A stretch of 64,000 nucleotides of DNA from contig CP059069.1 of the NCBI GenBank assembly GCA_017798145.1, positions 3,333,226-3,397,225 on the forward strand, read 5' to 3'. The DNA comes from Akkermansiaceae bacterium (lineage in GTDB: Bacteria; Verrucomicrobiota; Verrucomicrobiia; Verrucomicrobiales; Akkermansiaceae). The notes under the pieces are model-generated. The model ran no database searches, had not been told where the DNA came from, and saw nothing but the letters and a program-made list of their open reading frames with translations. Shown here in pieces: positions 28,176 to 33,334 of this stretch; within the stretch, counting starts at the first letter, position 1, and each line of letters opens with the position of its first letter. A program made the translations under genes and the position numbers.

Positions 28176-29072
28176 TCATTGCGACGGTTCCTTCTCTAGC
28201 GCCTCCACGATGGCCCCCACATTCGCGCGCATCATTTCCTCGTAGCTGGTGACCCCGCGGCCGTCCGCGATCAGTTCCCCGCCCAGCCTGATGCCGGTGT
28301 CGCGGGTGAGGCTTTGCAGCATCTTGGGATTGGATTCCTTTTCGGGGAAAATGGCGGCCACGTTTTCCTCCCTGAGGGTTGTGATGAGCTTGGCGAGTGT
28401 GGCGGCATCCGGCATCTGCTCCCGGTTCATTCCCTGCACTGAAAATGCCTCAAAGCCGTATCCCTCGCAGAAATATTGGAAAGCGGCATGGGCGGTGGCG
28501 AGCTTGCGCCTGTCCCTGGGGATGCGGATGACCTCGCGCTTCACCCATTTCTCCAGATCATCGAGCTTCAGGCGGTATGCAGATGCGTTGTTCTGGAAAA
28601 TCCGCGCCTGCTCCGGGCGCTGCTCCGAGAGTTTATCCGCCACGATCCCCGCCGCCCTGCGGAAATGATCCACGGAGTGCCACCAATGCGGATCGACCTC
28701 ATGCGAATGGTCGTGGTGATGTCCCTCGTGGTCGCAGGCGCCGTGGAGGGCGGGAAGGGTCGCGCCGACCTCGACGATGCGCGCCTTGCCACCTAGCACG
28801 GCCTTGAGCTCCGTGAGATAATTTTCCAAGCCCATGCCGGAAACGAAGTAGATCTCCGCGCCCTTGGCCGCGAGCAGATCCTCCGCCTGCGGCGCGAAGC
28901 TGTGGGGATCCCCCTTTGTGCCGATGAGATCGACCACCTCGATGGCATCCCCGCCCACCTGCCGCAGGAGATCGCCGACCAACGGATGCAGCGAAGCGAC
29001 CTTGAGCTGCTCGGCATGGGTGGCGCCGGACATTGCAAACAGGAAGACCAGGTTGAGGCGGAATTTCTTCAT
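28176..29072 (-). CDS. Zinc/manganese ABC transporter substrate-binding protein (ZnuA-like)
   Basis: This 298-residue cluster A-I binding protein has a signal peptide (1-20), the first ligand His in GDPHSF (57), and a metal-capturing His/Asp-rich loop at about 114-131 (DHEGHHHDHSHEVDPHWWH) characteristic of zinc-type proteins. The third His is in TAHAAFQYFCEGYG, and the C-terminal lobe has FPEKESNPKML. It delivers zinc, or manganese, to a membrane permease. No ATPase or permease gene is adjacent, which is unusual. The upstream gene ends 45 bases away and is a different operon. Confidence 0.9.
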   Translation of the reverse strand: MKKFRLNLVFLFAMSGATHAEQLKVASLHPLVGDLLRQVGGDAIEVVDLIGTKGDPHSFAPQAEDLLAAKGAEIYFVSGMGLENYLTELKAVLGGKARIVEVGATLPALHGACDHEGHHHDHSHEVDPHWWHSVDHFRRAAGIVADKLSEQRPEQARIFQNNASAYRLKLDDLEKWVKREVIRIPRDRRKLATAHAAFQYFCEGYGFEAFSVQGMNREQMPDAATLAKLITTLREENVAAIFPEKESNPKMLQSLTRDTGIRLGGELIADGRGVTSYEEMMRANVGAIVEALEKEPSQ

Positions 29073-29117: not shown

Positions 29118-29894
29118 CTAACAGGATGCCGCCGCGAGGAACGGGTTCGAGGAAAGCTCTTCCGCGACGGTGGTGGCGGGACCGTGGCCGGGGAGGATCA
29201 CGCAGTCAGGCCCGGCCTCGCGGAGGGCTGGGAGCAGGGTGGCGAATGCCGTGCGGTAGGCTTCGGTGCTGCGGCAGCGCCCCATGGAGCCGGCGAAGAT
29301 CGCATCGCCGGGGACGAGCAGGAGCTTCCCCAGCCCCTCGATGAGATAGCCTGCCGTGGGGCTCATGTGCCCGGAAAGGTCGATGGCACGGATCCTTAGC
29401 GGACCATGGACGAATCCCTTTTCCGCCAGTGCTTCCGTTTCCGAAATCACCCGGATCCCCTCATCCTCCATCGCGGCGACGCCGCCGACATGGTCCTCGT
29501 GGGCGTGGGTGATGAAAACCGCATCCGGGCGAATGCCACCGAGCGCCCGTGAAATGTCCTCGCGGGTGCACCCGGTGTCGAAGAGCAGGCGCACACCGCC
29601 CGCCTCGACGAGCCATGCGTTGACCGTCCATTGCCGGAAGGGGAGCTCGATCCTGCGCACGCCGGGGATTTCCCGTTCCGCAGGAAGATAGCCGGGTAGG
29701 GCGGCGAGGGCGGCAGGGGACAGGCCGAGGCTTGCGGCGGCCGTTCGCAAAGCCTGGCCGTCATCGTCACCATCGAGGAGCGCGGCGATCCGCTCCTGTG
29801 GCAGCCCGGACATTTCCGCTAATGCCACCGCATCGATGCCGAGGCCTAGCATCGCCTTTGCGATGACATCGGATGTGCCGTCCTCCAGGCTCAT
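29118..29894 (-). CDS. MBL-fold metallo-hydrolase with N-terminal helical (HTH-like) extension
   Basis: This 258-residue protein has an N-terminal helical segment (about 8-65, AKAMLGLGIDAVALAEMSGL) that resembles an XRE-type helix-turn-helix. A metallo-beta-lactamase domain follows with HAHEDH at 130-135, then SGHMSPTAGYL, GDAIF and a final PGHGP. The family hydrolyses thioesters such as glyoxalase II substrates, or other small molecules. The ATG at 29894 overlaps the stop of the ClpP-like gene (ATGA); the longer frame to 30092 lies inside that gene. The extension and the operon with a secreted protease are odd for this family. Confidence 0.82.
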   Translation of the reverse strand: MSLEDGTSDVIAKAMLGLGIDAVALAEMSGLPQERIAALLDGDDDGQALRTAAASLGLSPAALAALPGYLPAEREIPGVRRIELPFRQWTVNAWLVEAGGVRLLFDTGCTREDISRALGGIRPDAVFITHAHEDHVGGVAAMEDEGIRVISETEALAEKGFVHGPLRIRAIDLSGHMSPTAGYLIEGLGKLLLVPGDAIFAGSMGRCRSTEAYRTAFATLLPALREAGPDCVILPGHGPATTVAEELSSNPFLAAASC

Positions 29895-31081
29895 CGCATG
29901 CGGTAGTAGCCGTCCGGATTGTAGAGGAAATACACATCCTTCGGGGTCAGGCGCGGGAGGTAGGAGAACACCTTCCCGTCCGCATCCACCTGCTCGGAGA
30001 GCGCCTCCTTCGCGGCGGCGGGTTTCTTCTCCGCGTCCGGGTTGACGTTGATCGAGCTTTCCACGATGCCCTCGACGATGTTGTTGACCCACTTGAGCTT
30101 CTTCGCCTCATCGCCGAATTCGCTCCAGTCGCCGCTGGTTGAGCGGGCGTACATTTGCTCGATGAACTCGTCGGTGCTTAGGCCCATCTTCTTTGCGACG
30201 GGTGCGGCGAGCCTATCCCACCAGCGCTCGCTCTCCTGGTAGAATTCCTTCTGCTGGGTGAGGTTCAGGCGGGCGAAGGCGATCTGCGAGCTGATCTGGT
30301 GATGCAGGATGATCGCGTTCGGGTAGGCGTAGCTTTCCTCGGCGAGGGTGGTGATGCACGCGGCCATGGAGGCGGCGAAGCTTTTCACCACCACGTGCAC
30401 CGGCGCGGCGCTGGCCTCCATGGCCTTGAGGATGCGGTAGCCCGCCATCACCGAGCCGCCCGGGCAGGCGTCGATCACGATGAAGATGGGCAGTTCCTTG
30501 TCGCGGTTGTTCCAGAAGTCGATGCGGCTGGTGACGTAGTCAGCCGTGGATTCACCGATCATGCCGTTGAGGGGGATGCGGCGGTCGGAAATGACCAGCA
30601 CCCCGTCCTCGCGGAGGGGGTTCTTGAGATAGACGGGCTTCGAGTCCGCATAGGTTTCGCGCTTGTCCTGGGTCTCGATGGTGCTGATTTCGTTCTGGAG
30701 CTTCGTGAGTTCCAGGGCGGCCTCGCTCTGCACGGCCTTGAGATCCGCCGCGAGCTTTTCCGAGCGGATCTTGGAAATCTCGAACTCGCGGTTGAGTTCC
30801 GCGACTTCCATCTCCGATTTCGCGACGGCATCCTTGATCGCTTCCTTCCGCTTCGCAGCCTCCAGGGCGAGTTTCTCGGTGATCAGCTCGCGCTCAAGCT
30901 TGAGCTTCGCGATCTCCGCCTGGAGCTTGGCGTTCTCCGCATCCTTGTCAGGGGCTTTTTCCGCAGCCTCCGGCTTGGCTTCGGGCGCATTGCCTACGGC
31001 GGCATCGGGGCTTGCTTCCTTTGCCTGCACCGGAGCCACCGCCGCAAGTGCGGCCAATATCATCGCTATGTGTCTTGTCAT
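29891..31081 (-). CDS. Exported ClpP/SppA-like serine protease with coiled-coil region
   Basis: This 396-residue protein starts with a signal peptide (1-20, ending PVQA). A Lys/Glu-rich coiled coil follows at about 45-140, then a ClpP-crotonase-fold domain. DACPGGSV (205-211) is the oxyanion turn. VVKSFAASMAACITT places the nucleophile Ser at 238. NAIILHHQ places the catalytic His at 260-261. Cytoplasmic ClpP has neither signal nor coiled coil, so this is an envelope form resembling proteins annotated as ATP-dependent Clp protease-like in Verrucomicrobiota. No AAA+ partner is possible in the periplasm. Stop overlaps the metallo-hydrolase start; start overlaps the gene upstream. Confidence 0.82.
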   Translation of the reverse strand: MTRHIAMILAALAAVAPVQAKEASPDAAVGNAPEAKPEAAEKAPDKDAENAKLQAEIAKLKLERELITEKLALEAAKRKEAIKDAVAKSEMEVAELNREFEISKIRSEKLAADLKAVQSEAALELTKLQNEISTIETQDKRETYADSKPVYLKNPLREDGVLVISDRRIPLNGMIGESTADYVTSRIDFWNNRDKELPIFIVIDACPGGSVMAGYRILKAMEASAAPVHVVVKSFAASMAACITTLAEESYAYPNAIILHHQISSQIAFARLNLTQQKEFYQESERWWDRLAAPVAKKMGLSTDEFIEQMYARSTSGDWSEFGDEAKKLKWVNNIVEGIVESSINVNPDAEKKPAAAKEALSEQVDADGKVFSYLPRLTPKDVYFLYNPDGYYRMR

Positions 31082-31938
31082 CCCCCGGATACTGCCGCAT
31101 CCCGTCTTTTTTTCAAGCGGAGGCCGGCAAAAATCACGACGGCGGCAAAAAACAGGAAAAGCGAGGCCGCGATTCCGAGAAAGGTGAACAGCCGCCTGCT
31201 GGCCTGGTCAACTTCCTCGTCCGTAACCGTGTCCGTGGCGATCTCGCCGGCCTTTTTCTCAAATACGATCGCACCATCCCTGAGCGAGACCGATGTGAGC
31301 TGCGGCATCACCGCGCCCATCCTGTCATCTCCCACATACCTTTCCGCGATGCGGTAGGGCGACATCTGGGCGATGAATTCCTCGGCCACTTCAGCGCCCT
31401 CCACCTCGATGTCGCTGATCCGGAGGACGACCTCGTTTTTCAGCAAGCCCGGCTCCGCGACCAGGATCCCGTTGAGGTAACGTGGATCCGATGTGACCCA
31501 GCCGCCCTCGCCTTCCTTCGCTAGCCGCGGCTTGCCGTTGAGGCGGAAGGAAATGTCGATGCGCATCCGCTCGGCGCTGATCTCCGCCACTTTCATCGTC
31601 CCGCGCAGATCCTTGAAATCCGCGTAGGCGGCGATCGCAAGGTTGATCTCCTCCGCGCTCAGCGCCAGCTCTGCGGATCCCTCGCCGCCTGCGGCCAGCC
31701 GGAACGCCCCGATCTTCTCAGCCAGGCGGTTCAGGTCCGCCTCGCGGCCTTCGATCACCGCGATCTCCACGGGCGCCGGTTCCTCGCCGGTGAATTTCGC
31801 GATGGCGTTGAACTGCCTGAAGAGCACGGAAACGGAAAACCCGATCAGGAAAACCATCACCAGCAACGCCGCGACCAATATCGCACAGCCTGCGAAGGGC
31901 GATTTCTCGCTCACCGATTTCGGTTCCATCTCACTCAT
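31078..31938 (-). CDS. Hypothetical protein with two membrane segments
   Basis: This protein of about 286 residues has one membrane segment near the N-terminus (AILVAALLVMVFLIGFSVSVL) and another near the C-terminus (FLGIAASLFLFFAAVVIFAG). A soluble domain of about 200 residues lies between, probably in the periplasm. No known domain was recognised. It lies between tatC and the ClpP-like gene, overlapping both by 4-8 bases, so it belongs to the same operon. ATGs at 31950, 31938 and 31929 are possible starts; 31938 is preferred because an AAAGGCG lies before it and it overlaps the tatC stop closely. Confidence 0.65.
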   Translation of the reverse strand: MSEMEPKSVSEKSPFAGCAILVAALLVMVFLIGFSVSVLFRQFNAIAKFTGEEPAPVEIAVIEGREADLNRLAEKIGAFRLAAGGEGSAELALSAEEINLAIAAYADFKDLRGTMKVAEISAERMRIDISFRLNGKPRLAKEGEGGWVTSDPRYLNGILVAEPGLLKNEVVLRISDIEVEGAEVAEEFIAQMSPYRIAERYVGDDRMGAVMPQLTSVSLRDGAIVFEKKAGEIATDTVTDEEVDQASRRLFTFLGIAASLFLFFAAVVIFAGLRLKKRRDAAVSGG

Positions 31939-33334
31939 CGCCTTTGGCATCGTTCATTCGTTTCTTTTCCTCCTCCGGGATGTCATCGCCGGTCACCGCG
32001 TCATCCGGCTCGGTCCATTCCTCGTCGCCGGGCAGGCCGTGATGCCTGTCATGGTATTCATCGTGCCAGTGGTGGTCCTCATCGTGGTGATACCCGTCAT
32101 GCCAGCCATGATCGCCCGCCTCGGTGGCATCGCCCTCGTGGTCCGGGTGGCCGTGGCCGGCCGCCTCCGCGCGCTCATTGTCCTGGATCATCCACTGCCG
32201 CCGCCGCTCCCTCAGCTCCGCCTCTTCCTCAGCCTCCTTCTGGCGCGCCTTTTTCCTGTCGAACCACGCCAGCCAGATGCACATTTCGTAAAGCAGCAGC
32301 ATGGGCAGCGCCATGAGGTTGAGCGTCATGATGTCCGGCGTCGGAGTGATGACGGCGGCGGCGATGTAGATCGCCAGGATCGCATAGCTGCGGGTGCGCG
32401 ACATCGTCTCATAGCTCAGCAGCCCCAGCTTCACCATGACCATGACCACCACGGGAAGCTCGAAGGAAAGGCCGAAGAGCAGGGTGAACTGGGTGGCGAA
32501 GGTGATGTATTCGCCGATGCGCCAGTCGTTGGAGACGCCCAGCTTCGCGCCCCAGTCGAAGAAAAAAAGCAGGGCGCGCGGCAGGACGAAGAAGTATGCG
32601 AAAAGAACCCCGGAAAGGAACAGCCCGAAGCCGATCCCCATCGCCGGCCAGAGGATTTTCCGCTCATTCTCGTGCAGGCCTGGCAGGACGAACTGGAGGA
32701 CGAACATCAGCAGCAGGGGAAACGCCAGGACGATGCCCGCGAAAAATGCCAGCTTCATGGAGAGCATGAACGGCTCCGTCGGCTTGAGCGCCGACATCAT
32801 CTTGATGTTCGAGCCCGCACTGGCATCCACATCCGGATCCGAGTCTATCAGCGCAAGCAGCTGGGCAACCATTTTCCCATCCACCCCGAGATTTCTCACA
32901 AAACCCTCCCGCTTCTCCTCCGGCAAGGCCTTCGCGGCCCGCAACAGCGCGACGCTGCGCGCATGGAACTCCATGTCGGGCTTCCCCAGCTCCCTGTAGA
33001 ACGCGGCGCGCTGCCCTTCGTCCAGCCCGGCCGCGATCCGCTCGATTGCCTTCGCCTCGTCCCATGTTTCCACCGTCGGCACGGTGATGCCCGGATGCGC
33101 CTTGGCATCCGGCATGGTCTCCTGCTGCTTGTCGAAGATCACCTTTTCCGCAGGCGCGCGCAGCACATGCATGAGCTGCTCCTGGAACGTGAAGCAGACG
33201 ATCATGGAGACCAGGAGCGTGACCACCACCCGCGTGATCATCACACGCAGATCCTCGAGATGCTCCAGGAAGGGCTTCTCGTGGTCGGAATGGGCTTTCT
33301 CCCTGAGTTCGAAGACTTTCTTGAGCAGATACAT
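31931..33334 (-). CDS. tatC: Twin-arginine translocase subunit TatC with large insertion and His-rich tail
   Basis: This protein has the TatC fold: FLEHLEDLRVMITR at the N-terminus with the conserved Glu, six membrane helices, FVLPRALLFFFDWG, and PTPDIMTLNLMALPMLLLYE near the C-terminus. It recognises RR signal peptides. It is 467 residues long against about 250 for the usual protein. The excess is an insertion of about 110 residues in the first periplasmic loop (about 65-180) and a tail of about 90 residues (about 375-467) rich in His, Asp and Glu. No tatA/B gene is adjacent. The PhoX-like protein at 50486 carries an RR signal and would be a client. Confidence 0.9.
   Translation of the reverse strand: MYLLKKVFELREKAHSDHEKPFLEHLEDLRVMITRVVVTLLVSMIVCFTFQEQLMHVLRAPAEKVIFDKQQETMPDAKAHPGITVPTVETWDEAKAIERIAAGLDEGQRAAFYRELGKPDMEFHARSVALLRAAKALPEEKREGFVRNLGVDGKMVAQLLALIDSDPDVDASAGSNIKMMSALKPTEPFMLSMKLAFFAGIVLAFPLLLMFVLQFVLPGLHENERKILWPAMGIGFGLFLSGVLFAYFFVLPRALLFFFDWGAKLGVSNDWRIGEYITFATQFTLLFGLSFELPVVVMVMVKLGLLSYETMSRTRSYAILAIYIAAAVITPTPDIMTLNLMALPMLLLYEMCIWLAWFDRKKARQKEAEEEAELRERRRQWMIQDNERAEAAGHGHPDHEGDATEAGDHGWHDGYHHDEDHHWHDEYHDRHHGLPGDEEWTEPDDAVTGDDIPEEEKKRMNDAKGDE

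Follow-up and report, generated by a model that had tools for sequence, protein, structure and literature searches.

A run of four genes on the minus strand of a 64,000-nucleotide stretch of an Akkermansiaceae genome (Verrucomicrobiota; assembly GCA_017798145.1, contig CP059069.1, positions 3,333,226 to 3,397,225; hereafter the window) codes, in order of transcription, for TatC of the twin-arginine translocation (Tat) system, a membrane protein with two hydrophobic helices (P2), a ClpP-like serine protease with a signal-peptide-like start (P3) and a metallo-beta-lactamase-fold hydrolase (Table 1). As a preliminary description of this DNA had stated, the genes are coupled by overlaps of 4 to 8 bases: tatC and P2 share 8 (an alternative in-frame ATG of P2 at 31950, instead of that at 31938, would make this 20), P2 and P3 share 4, and P3 shares another 4 with the hydrolase, whose ATG lies at 29894. 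All four are real genes, because their orthologs keep the same order in close relatives. The part of this run that recurs beyond those relatives is narrower and consists of what is probably an exported ClpP-like protease, often paired with a membrane protein that is perhaps TULIP-like. This picture draws on a sample of 189 genomes of the order, in which P3 was called at an expectation value (E) ≤1e-20 and the P2 profile at E ≤1e-5, a sample of 194 genomes of the phylum searched for both proteins, and a set of named P3 loci that are the best 80 of 387 and hence weighted to near relatives; several of these 80 come from the same genomes as members of the order sample.

Table 1. Positions, in the window, of the four-gene run, its parts and its downstream neighbor, with the named loci in which P2 has an mnmA-type neighbor
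Feature	Position	Strand	Basis
tatC, 467 residues, first gene of the run	33334..31931	minus	PF00902, 212 bits vs cut-off 25.1
P2, two-helix membrane protein, 286 residues	31938..31078	minus	family profile matches 155/189 order genomes
P2 membrane helix 1, residues 14-47	31798..31899	minus	AlphaFold model; alignments A2 and A4
P2 interhelical domain, residues 66-230, with weak TULIP likeness	31249..31743	minus	model; structure searches
P2 C-terminal helix, residues 240-284, including membrane helix 2	31087..31221	minus	AlphaFold model; ortholog comparison
P3, ClpP-like serine protease with signal-peptide-like start, 396 residues	31081..29891	minus	PF00574, 56.2 bits vs 20.2
P3 N-terminus resembling a signal peptide, about residues 1-20, lacking a twin arginine	31022..31081	minus	sequence reading and simple rule
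P3 predicted continuous helix, residues 46-144	30650..30946	minus	AlphaFold model
P3 ClpP domain, residues 161-341	30059..30601	minus	AlphaFold model; fold match
P3 Ser238, nucleophile by alignment	30368..30370	minus	39/39 in alignment A3
P3 His261, catalytic His by alignment	30299..30301	minus	38/39 in A3; Pro in L164, a real exception
P3 Asp318, catalytic Asp by alignment	30128..30130	minus	39/39 in A3
P3 C-terminal tail, conserved as LPRLxPKDxYxLYNPDGYYR type, residues 375-396	29894..29959	minus	alignments; low model confidence
Metallo-beta-lactamase-fold hydrolase, 258 residues	29894..29118	minus	Lactamase_B, 57.4 bits vs 22.7, scanned on a sequence one residue longer
znuA-type metal-binding protein gene, possible fifth gene	29072..28176	minus	PF01297, 215.8 bits
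P2 near a divergent mnmA-type gene	loci L110, L117, L129, L250-L252, L254, L256, L260, L263, L264		

P3 has the fold of ClpP, the textbook ATP-dependent cytoplasmic protease (MEROPS S14, PF00574). Its AlphaFold model, with a mean predicted local distance difference test score (pLDDT) of 76, matches ClpP at a Z-score of 22.5 and 2.3 Å over 172 residues, a sequence-profile comparison likewise returns ClpP, and PF00574 scores above its cut-off. The Pro-Gly-Gly oxyanion loop typical of ClpP is shared, with Gly208-Gly209 kept in all 39 rows of A3, and Ser238, His261 and Asp318 align with the triad of ten ordinary ClpPs; these ten had been selected by their Ser and His motifs, so that the Asp alone is an independent check, and one P3, L181, deviates in the ClpP alignment through wrong trimming. 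P3 differs from ClpP in its signal-like start, in the predicted 99-residue helix placed in front of the catalytic domain and in a conserved C-terminal tail, set off by a linker that is not conserved. It occurs in 55 of the 189 genomes of the order. Across the phylum, strong orthologs (best E <1e-60) are confined to 9 of the 194 genomes; the next matches, at 1.7e-10 or weaker, are as expected of ordinary ClpP.

Against the established families, P3 stands apart. It falls far under the NCBIfam equivalog cut-offs for ClpP (TIGR00493, 34.2 vs 308.6 bits, and the other ClpP models likewise) and under the cut-offs for the SDH-type ClpP-like proteinases (NF047768, 26.2 vs 250; PF01972, 21.6 vs 31.3). 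TepA, SppA and the SDH-type proteins do resemble it, as ClpP-superfamily proteases linked to the envelope or to export, and P3 might itself be a signal-peptide peptidase of the SppA or TepA kind that works independently of P2. The ClpP fold and probable envelope location of P3 would suit such a role, but the SppA model TIGR00706 gives P3 20.4 bits where 155.45 are needed, and we know of no long helix or tail like that of P3 in either SppA or TepA, the latter being set apart on this general knowledge; this alternative hence appears improbable. In NfeD1b/stomatin operons, too, a ClpP-like domain is encoded beside a membrane protein. Here, however, P3 gives a weak match to PF25145 (16 bits vs 40) with no NfeD region above cut-off, and P2 has no stomatin-type match among the Pfam families shown. 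PMC12419801 mentions a secreted serine protease with a ClpP-like domain to which a PDZ-like domain is fused, encoded in another operon; P3 differs from it in having no PDZ match in Pfam.

A simple signal-peptide rule applied at the first codon picks out 31 of the 39 P3 rows, versus one of the ten ordinary ClpPs; of 479 other long open reading frames it picks out 149. Some P3 rows begin too early in the extracted sequences used for this rule. On this simple sequence criterion P3 would be exported by the general (Sec) route and act as a periplasmic serine peptidase of the ClpP fold. The model aligns from about residue 128 with ClpP residues 2 onwards, and the long helix precedes that part. We considered a coiled coil as a label for this helix and dropped it for want of a clear coiled-coil periodicity: with Ala counted, its hydrophobic periodicity is no higher than in shuffled sequences at 3.5 or 3.6; with ILMVF only, over part of the segment, the periodicity peaks at 3.3, which the usual range does not include, with a minor peak at 3.55; and i+4 salt bridges are not enriched (3.4 vs 3.8 in shuffles).

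P2 belongs to a much more widespread family. Its profile matches 155 of the 189 genomes of the order, in 41 of 43 genera; phylum-wide, the profile (A4) finds 14 of the 194 genomes and the single sequence (P0002) 11, one of the latter being a genome of genus g2 that is hit at 1.0e-3 inside a different frame of 560 residues. For the P2 of the window, neither Pfam nor NCBIfam offers a match below 0.1. AlphaFold models it with confidence (pLDDT 90.3), the first membrane helix (14-47) being followed by a helix at 66-84, strands and short helices, and a C-terminal helix (240-284). The preliminary label of a two-helix protein is thus correct for the window but describes a feature of its lineage, as the second helix is absent from the orthologs of the Verrucomicrobiaceae type. 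The positive charge of the C-terminal tail (net +2.9 on average over 42 members) fits a cytoplasmic C-terminus and hence a probably periplasmic domain; being close to neutral, the N-terminal flank says nothing of orientation. Every member in alignments of 30 and of 42 P2s has a Gly17-Cys18 pair close to where membrane helix 1 begins; it is not a lipobox, because it precedes the hydrophobic stretch.

The domain between the helices offers a hint of its fold. Neither Foldseek nor a viral structure library returns a match to the P2 model at or below 0.001, and the best sequence of a solved structure reached by the P2 profile has an E of 0.61. Yet the highest domain-wide structural matches are to TULIP proteins, namely YceB (Z 5.3, root-mean-square deviation [rmsd] 6.0/136), CETP (5.2, 5.7/148) and BPI (4.8, 5.7/141), with P47 (3.8), LBP (3.5) and Mdm12 (3.2) further down. 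The LmeA family of Pfam is matched by 2 of 42 P2 members, at best with 0.0018. PMC6791001, on bacterial TULIPs, names P47, OrfX2, YceB, DUF4403, DUF2140 and DUF2993, the last two as proposed members. P2 is perhaps a further, Verrucomicrobial candidate, as yet unproven; it resembles bacterial TULIPs such as YceB/DUF1439, DUF2140 and DUF2993/LmeA in being matched best by this group across the domain, and differs in that the Z-scores are just 3 to 5, in the lack of sequence support for YceB and, in the lineage of the window, in its two membrane helices.

The genes for these two proteins are found together well beyond the close relatives of the window. P2 is present in every one of the 55 P3-bearing genomes of the order sample. 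In 24 of them the two matches are adjacent, lying less than 600 bases apart, and in nine more they are separated by 900-1800 bases, or about one gene, all distances being measured from match to match and not between gene ends; clustering is thus seen in 33 of the 55 genomes, which come from several families of the order. Among the named P3 copies, P2 lies upstream of 52 of the 63 that have 2.6 kb or more of sequence on that side, a count that includes L160, which carries P2 despite an over-long open frame (otherwise 51). In the four loci whose intervening genes were read, the gene between P2 and P3 specifies a GDSL-type hydrolase (L075, L122 and L131, of the Verrucomicrobiaceae type) or an FGE-sulfatase protein (L107).

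The explanation that we favor, tentatively and at somewhat less than an even chance, is that P3 is an ATP-independent periplasmic ClpP-like peptidase that, often paired with the membrane-anchored P2, clears peptides at the inner membrane. As no ATP is expected in the periplasm, P3 could not use an unfoldase of the ClpX/ClpA type there. Instead, its long N-terminal helix would probably gate or tether a protease ring; should P3 assemble into a ring, these helices would surround its axial pore. P2, whose domain would face the periplasm from an inner-membrane anchor, would most likely dock P3 at the membrane or supply it with hydrophobic ligands, for example lipid-linked peptides or remnants of signal peptides, and the pair could in this way remove small or unfolded peptides from the surface of the inner membrane. 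As part of the same tentative proposal, P2 and P3 would be the meaningful unit of the run, and tatC and the hydrolase neighbors gained in one clade.

Several observations weigh against this proposal. A laxer form of the signal rule is unspecific, accepting 38 of 39 P3 rows but also five of the ten ordinary ClpPs and 211 of the 479 other long frames. In the structure comparison of P2, thioesterases of another fold reach Z-scores of 3.2 to 3.8 on the same domain, one long-helix row outscores every TULIP, and values under 8 may, by the tool's own caution, mean a common arrangement only. A sequence relationship of P2 to YceB finds no support, the hhalign probability being 2.6%. Weak Pfam matches other than LmeA cover more P2 members than LmeA does; among them DUF4446 is hit in 10 of 42 (best 6.1e-06), although a rescan of three members gave no such match. 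The pairing, too, is incomplete. In 22 of the 55 P3-bearing genomes the two genes are not clustered, being far apart on one contig in three and on different, in some cases short, contigs in 19, some of which may reflect contig breaks. The P3 genes of the Thiotrichaceae type, of Rubritalea and of Persicirhabdus have no adjacent P2 in the stretches examined, some of which are short upstream. Conversely, P2 is found in 100 genomes of the order with no P3 at the threshold used and must therefore have work of its own.

P2 is thus the wider family and P3 its frequent neighbor. Alternatively, the two might be functionally independent, P2 being a general lipid-binding protein of the envelope, P3 a stand-alone periplasmic peptidase, and their adjacency an ancient arrangement that has persisted by chance or because it allows co-expression. 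This would account for the presence of P2 in 155 genomes against 55 for P3, for how commonly P3 occurs without P2 alongside and for the GDSL-type and FGE-sulfatase genes that intervene in some families. A divergent mnmA-type gene lies beside or near P2 in 11 of 32 loci, whether or not P3 is there; its identity was confirmed, by tRNA_Me_trans domains, for the gene of L117, and a place at its side is perhaps the ancestral location of P2. What speaks for a functional link, on the other hand, is that clustering in 33 of 55 genomes from several families is far above what random placement would give (by our estimate, a few kb in several Mb), that the genes overlap in the window and that not one P3-bearing genome of the order sample is without P2. 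Independence of the two proteins is a substantial alternative, rated just below the favored explanation.

The preliminary description had read the whole run as a quality-control or processing unit for exported proteins, joined to the Tat translocase. Part of this stands, in that a ClpP-type protease with a signal-like start is coupled to a membrane-protein gene and the order of P2 and P3 recurs across families; the tie to Tat does not, and tatC keeps its place in a single genus. In the order sample TatC is found in 176 of the 189 genomes and adjoins P3 in six of the 55 that bear P3 (G000, G249, G266, G275, G309 and G332), all of them members of the genus of the window and together six of its seven P3-bearing members. 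Two further members of the genus keep TatC and P2 together, namely G321, whose P3 is on another contig, and G346, for which no P3 was found, so that TatC adjoins P2 in all eight sampled genomes of the genus. In 47 of the remaining 49 P3-bearing genomes the listed TatC (some second matches aside; G196, G233, G240 and G337 carry more than one) is on another contig or at least about 49 kb away, the nearest being that of G355; the other two, G218 and G235, give no TatC match. The flanks of P3 that were examined likewise contain no TatC beside it apart from the same members of the genus of the window. Among the named loci, that of Luteolibacter pohnpeiensis (L172) has TatC, P2, P3 and the hydrolase one after another, and those of Haloferula (L179 and L181) have P2 and P3 with no TatC within 15 kb. 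A Tat operon conserved across the order is accordingly rejected. The preliminary description had itself named gene order confined to the nearest relatives as the finding that would refute it, and this is the pattern seen for tatC and, so far as it was followed, for the hydrolase.

On this reading, P2 and P3 would process Tat substrates as a Tat-coupled quality-control unit. The overlapping genes and the constancy of the TatC-P2 neighborhood within the genus are in its favor, as is the presence of TatC upstream of 25 of the 63 named P3 copies having at least 2.6 kb of upstream sequence. In a tree of 115 P3 domains (the window, 80 of 81 named copies and 34 of 63 order-sample copies chosen for spread, L173 having been removed by the motif filter), the 26 TatC-labeled rows all fall in one 34-row clade (support 91/88), itself nested in a better supported clade of 46 rows (99/98); the eight other rows of the smaller clade lack the TatC label, some owing to a cut contig. 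Outside that clade TatC adjacency is unseen, the comparison of TatC with P2 beyond the genus having been made by eye from the listed rows. Moreover, a twin arginine occurs in the signal-like stretch of none of 38 P3s and, by reading of the sequence, not in P2, and in genus g2 of the same family, presumably Akkermansia, all 26 genomes have a TatC match and, at the thresholds applied, lack P2 as well as P3. The Tat link is therefore a clade-level arrangement, and a unit devoted to Tat substrates is unlikely.

The tatC gene of the run is the sole TatC match in its genome, in which a TatA match lies 467 kb away. The PF00902 match is full-length, spanning positions 1-208, and the second stretch of the TIGR00945 match begins at residue 178. 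Alignment places about 110 extra residues in the first periplasmic loop, and His and Asp abound in the C-terminal tail. Among the TatCs listed for the family of the window, g2 included, most take 930-970 bases for the 208 model positions (G051, with 696, being an exception), versus about 657-710 in most f2 genomes; the extra residues, being common to most listed TatCs of the family, are thus not special to the operon.

The hydrolase combines its Lactamase_B match with a complete HxHxDH motif (HAHEDH at residue 130); we also considered glyoxalase II (GloB) and discarded it, as TIGR03413 scores 32.4 against a cut-off of 200.8. Of the 73 named P3 copies followed by 900 bases or more, 24 have it downstream, and it lies beside 3 of the 59 order-sample copies with enough downstream sequence; the order with the hydrolase, as far as it was followed, does not extend past the nearest relatives. 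The znuA-type gene begins 45 bases past the hydrolase stop, and a similar gene stands behind the hydrolase in L136, L139, L142 and L143; hence, the transcription unit may be longer than four genes and reach the znuA-type gene. A scan of the run found no sigma-70-type promoter, and terminator-like sites were no commoner than chance.

Beyond our preferred proposal of a periplasmic peptidase paired with P2, a more elaborate form can be envisaged, in which the axial gate of a periplasmic P3 ring would be a seven-helix barrel some 15 nm in length, a lipid-binding P2 would hold the ring at the inner membrane and, in the Luteolibacter-type clade, substrates would be fed by Tat. We give this little credence; if true, it would mean a lipid- or membrane-gated, ATP-independent ClpP machine in place of an ATP-driven unfoldase. 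Even apart from this, P3 represents a conserved family of ClpPs in which a signal-like start, an intact triad, an added long helix and a conserved tail come together, and it raises the question of what would gate a ring of this kind where ATP is lacking. In addition, an order-wide membrane family of the Verrucomicrobia gains, in P2, both neighbors and a hint of fold, with lipid binding as a testable property. In the open-access literature searched, the phrases "periplasmic ClpP" and "secreted ClpP" and their variants occur in no paper, and none joins ClpP, Verrucomicrobi* and TatC; a search joining the TULIP domain with Clp protease found none either, and the titles and opening lines of abstracts on Luteolibacter and ClpP hold nothing on P2 or P3.

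Some P3 genes are duplicated or found in unexpected company. Tandem copies are present in three f9 genomes and in G281, and diverged tandem copies at L076, L077, L078, L100 and L179, which could perhaps form mixed rings; L100 and L179 seem to come from one and the same genome. Six orthologs (L182, L195, L198, L200, L209 and L214) lie on contigs whose titles name Thiotrichaceae, Cocleimonas, Leucothrix or Aquificaceae. The P3 tree joins them to sequences of Persicirhabdus and Rubritalea in a single branch (98/89), the placement of L198 being weak, and their neighbors include LpxB (L198) and BacA/UppP (L209). This branching and these neighbors suggest that the Thiotrichaceae-type P3 was likely acquired by lateral transfer; contamination of metagenome-assembled genomes may be an alternative source of these loci. 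Finally, in two loci of the Rubritalea type (L201 and L212), the gene next after P3 reads like one for a membrane-fusion (HlyD-like) protein.

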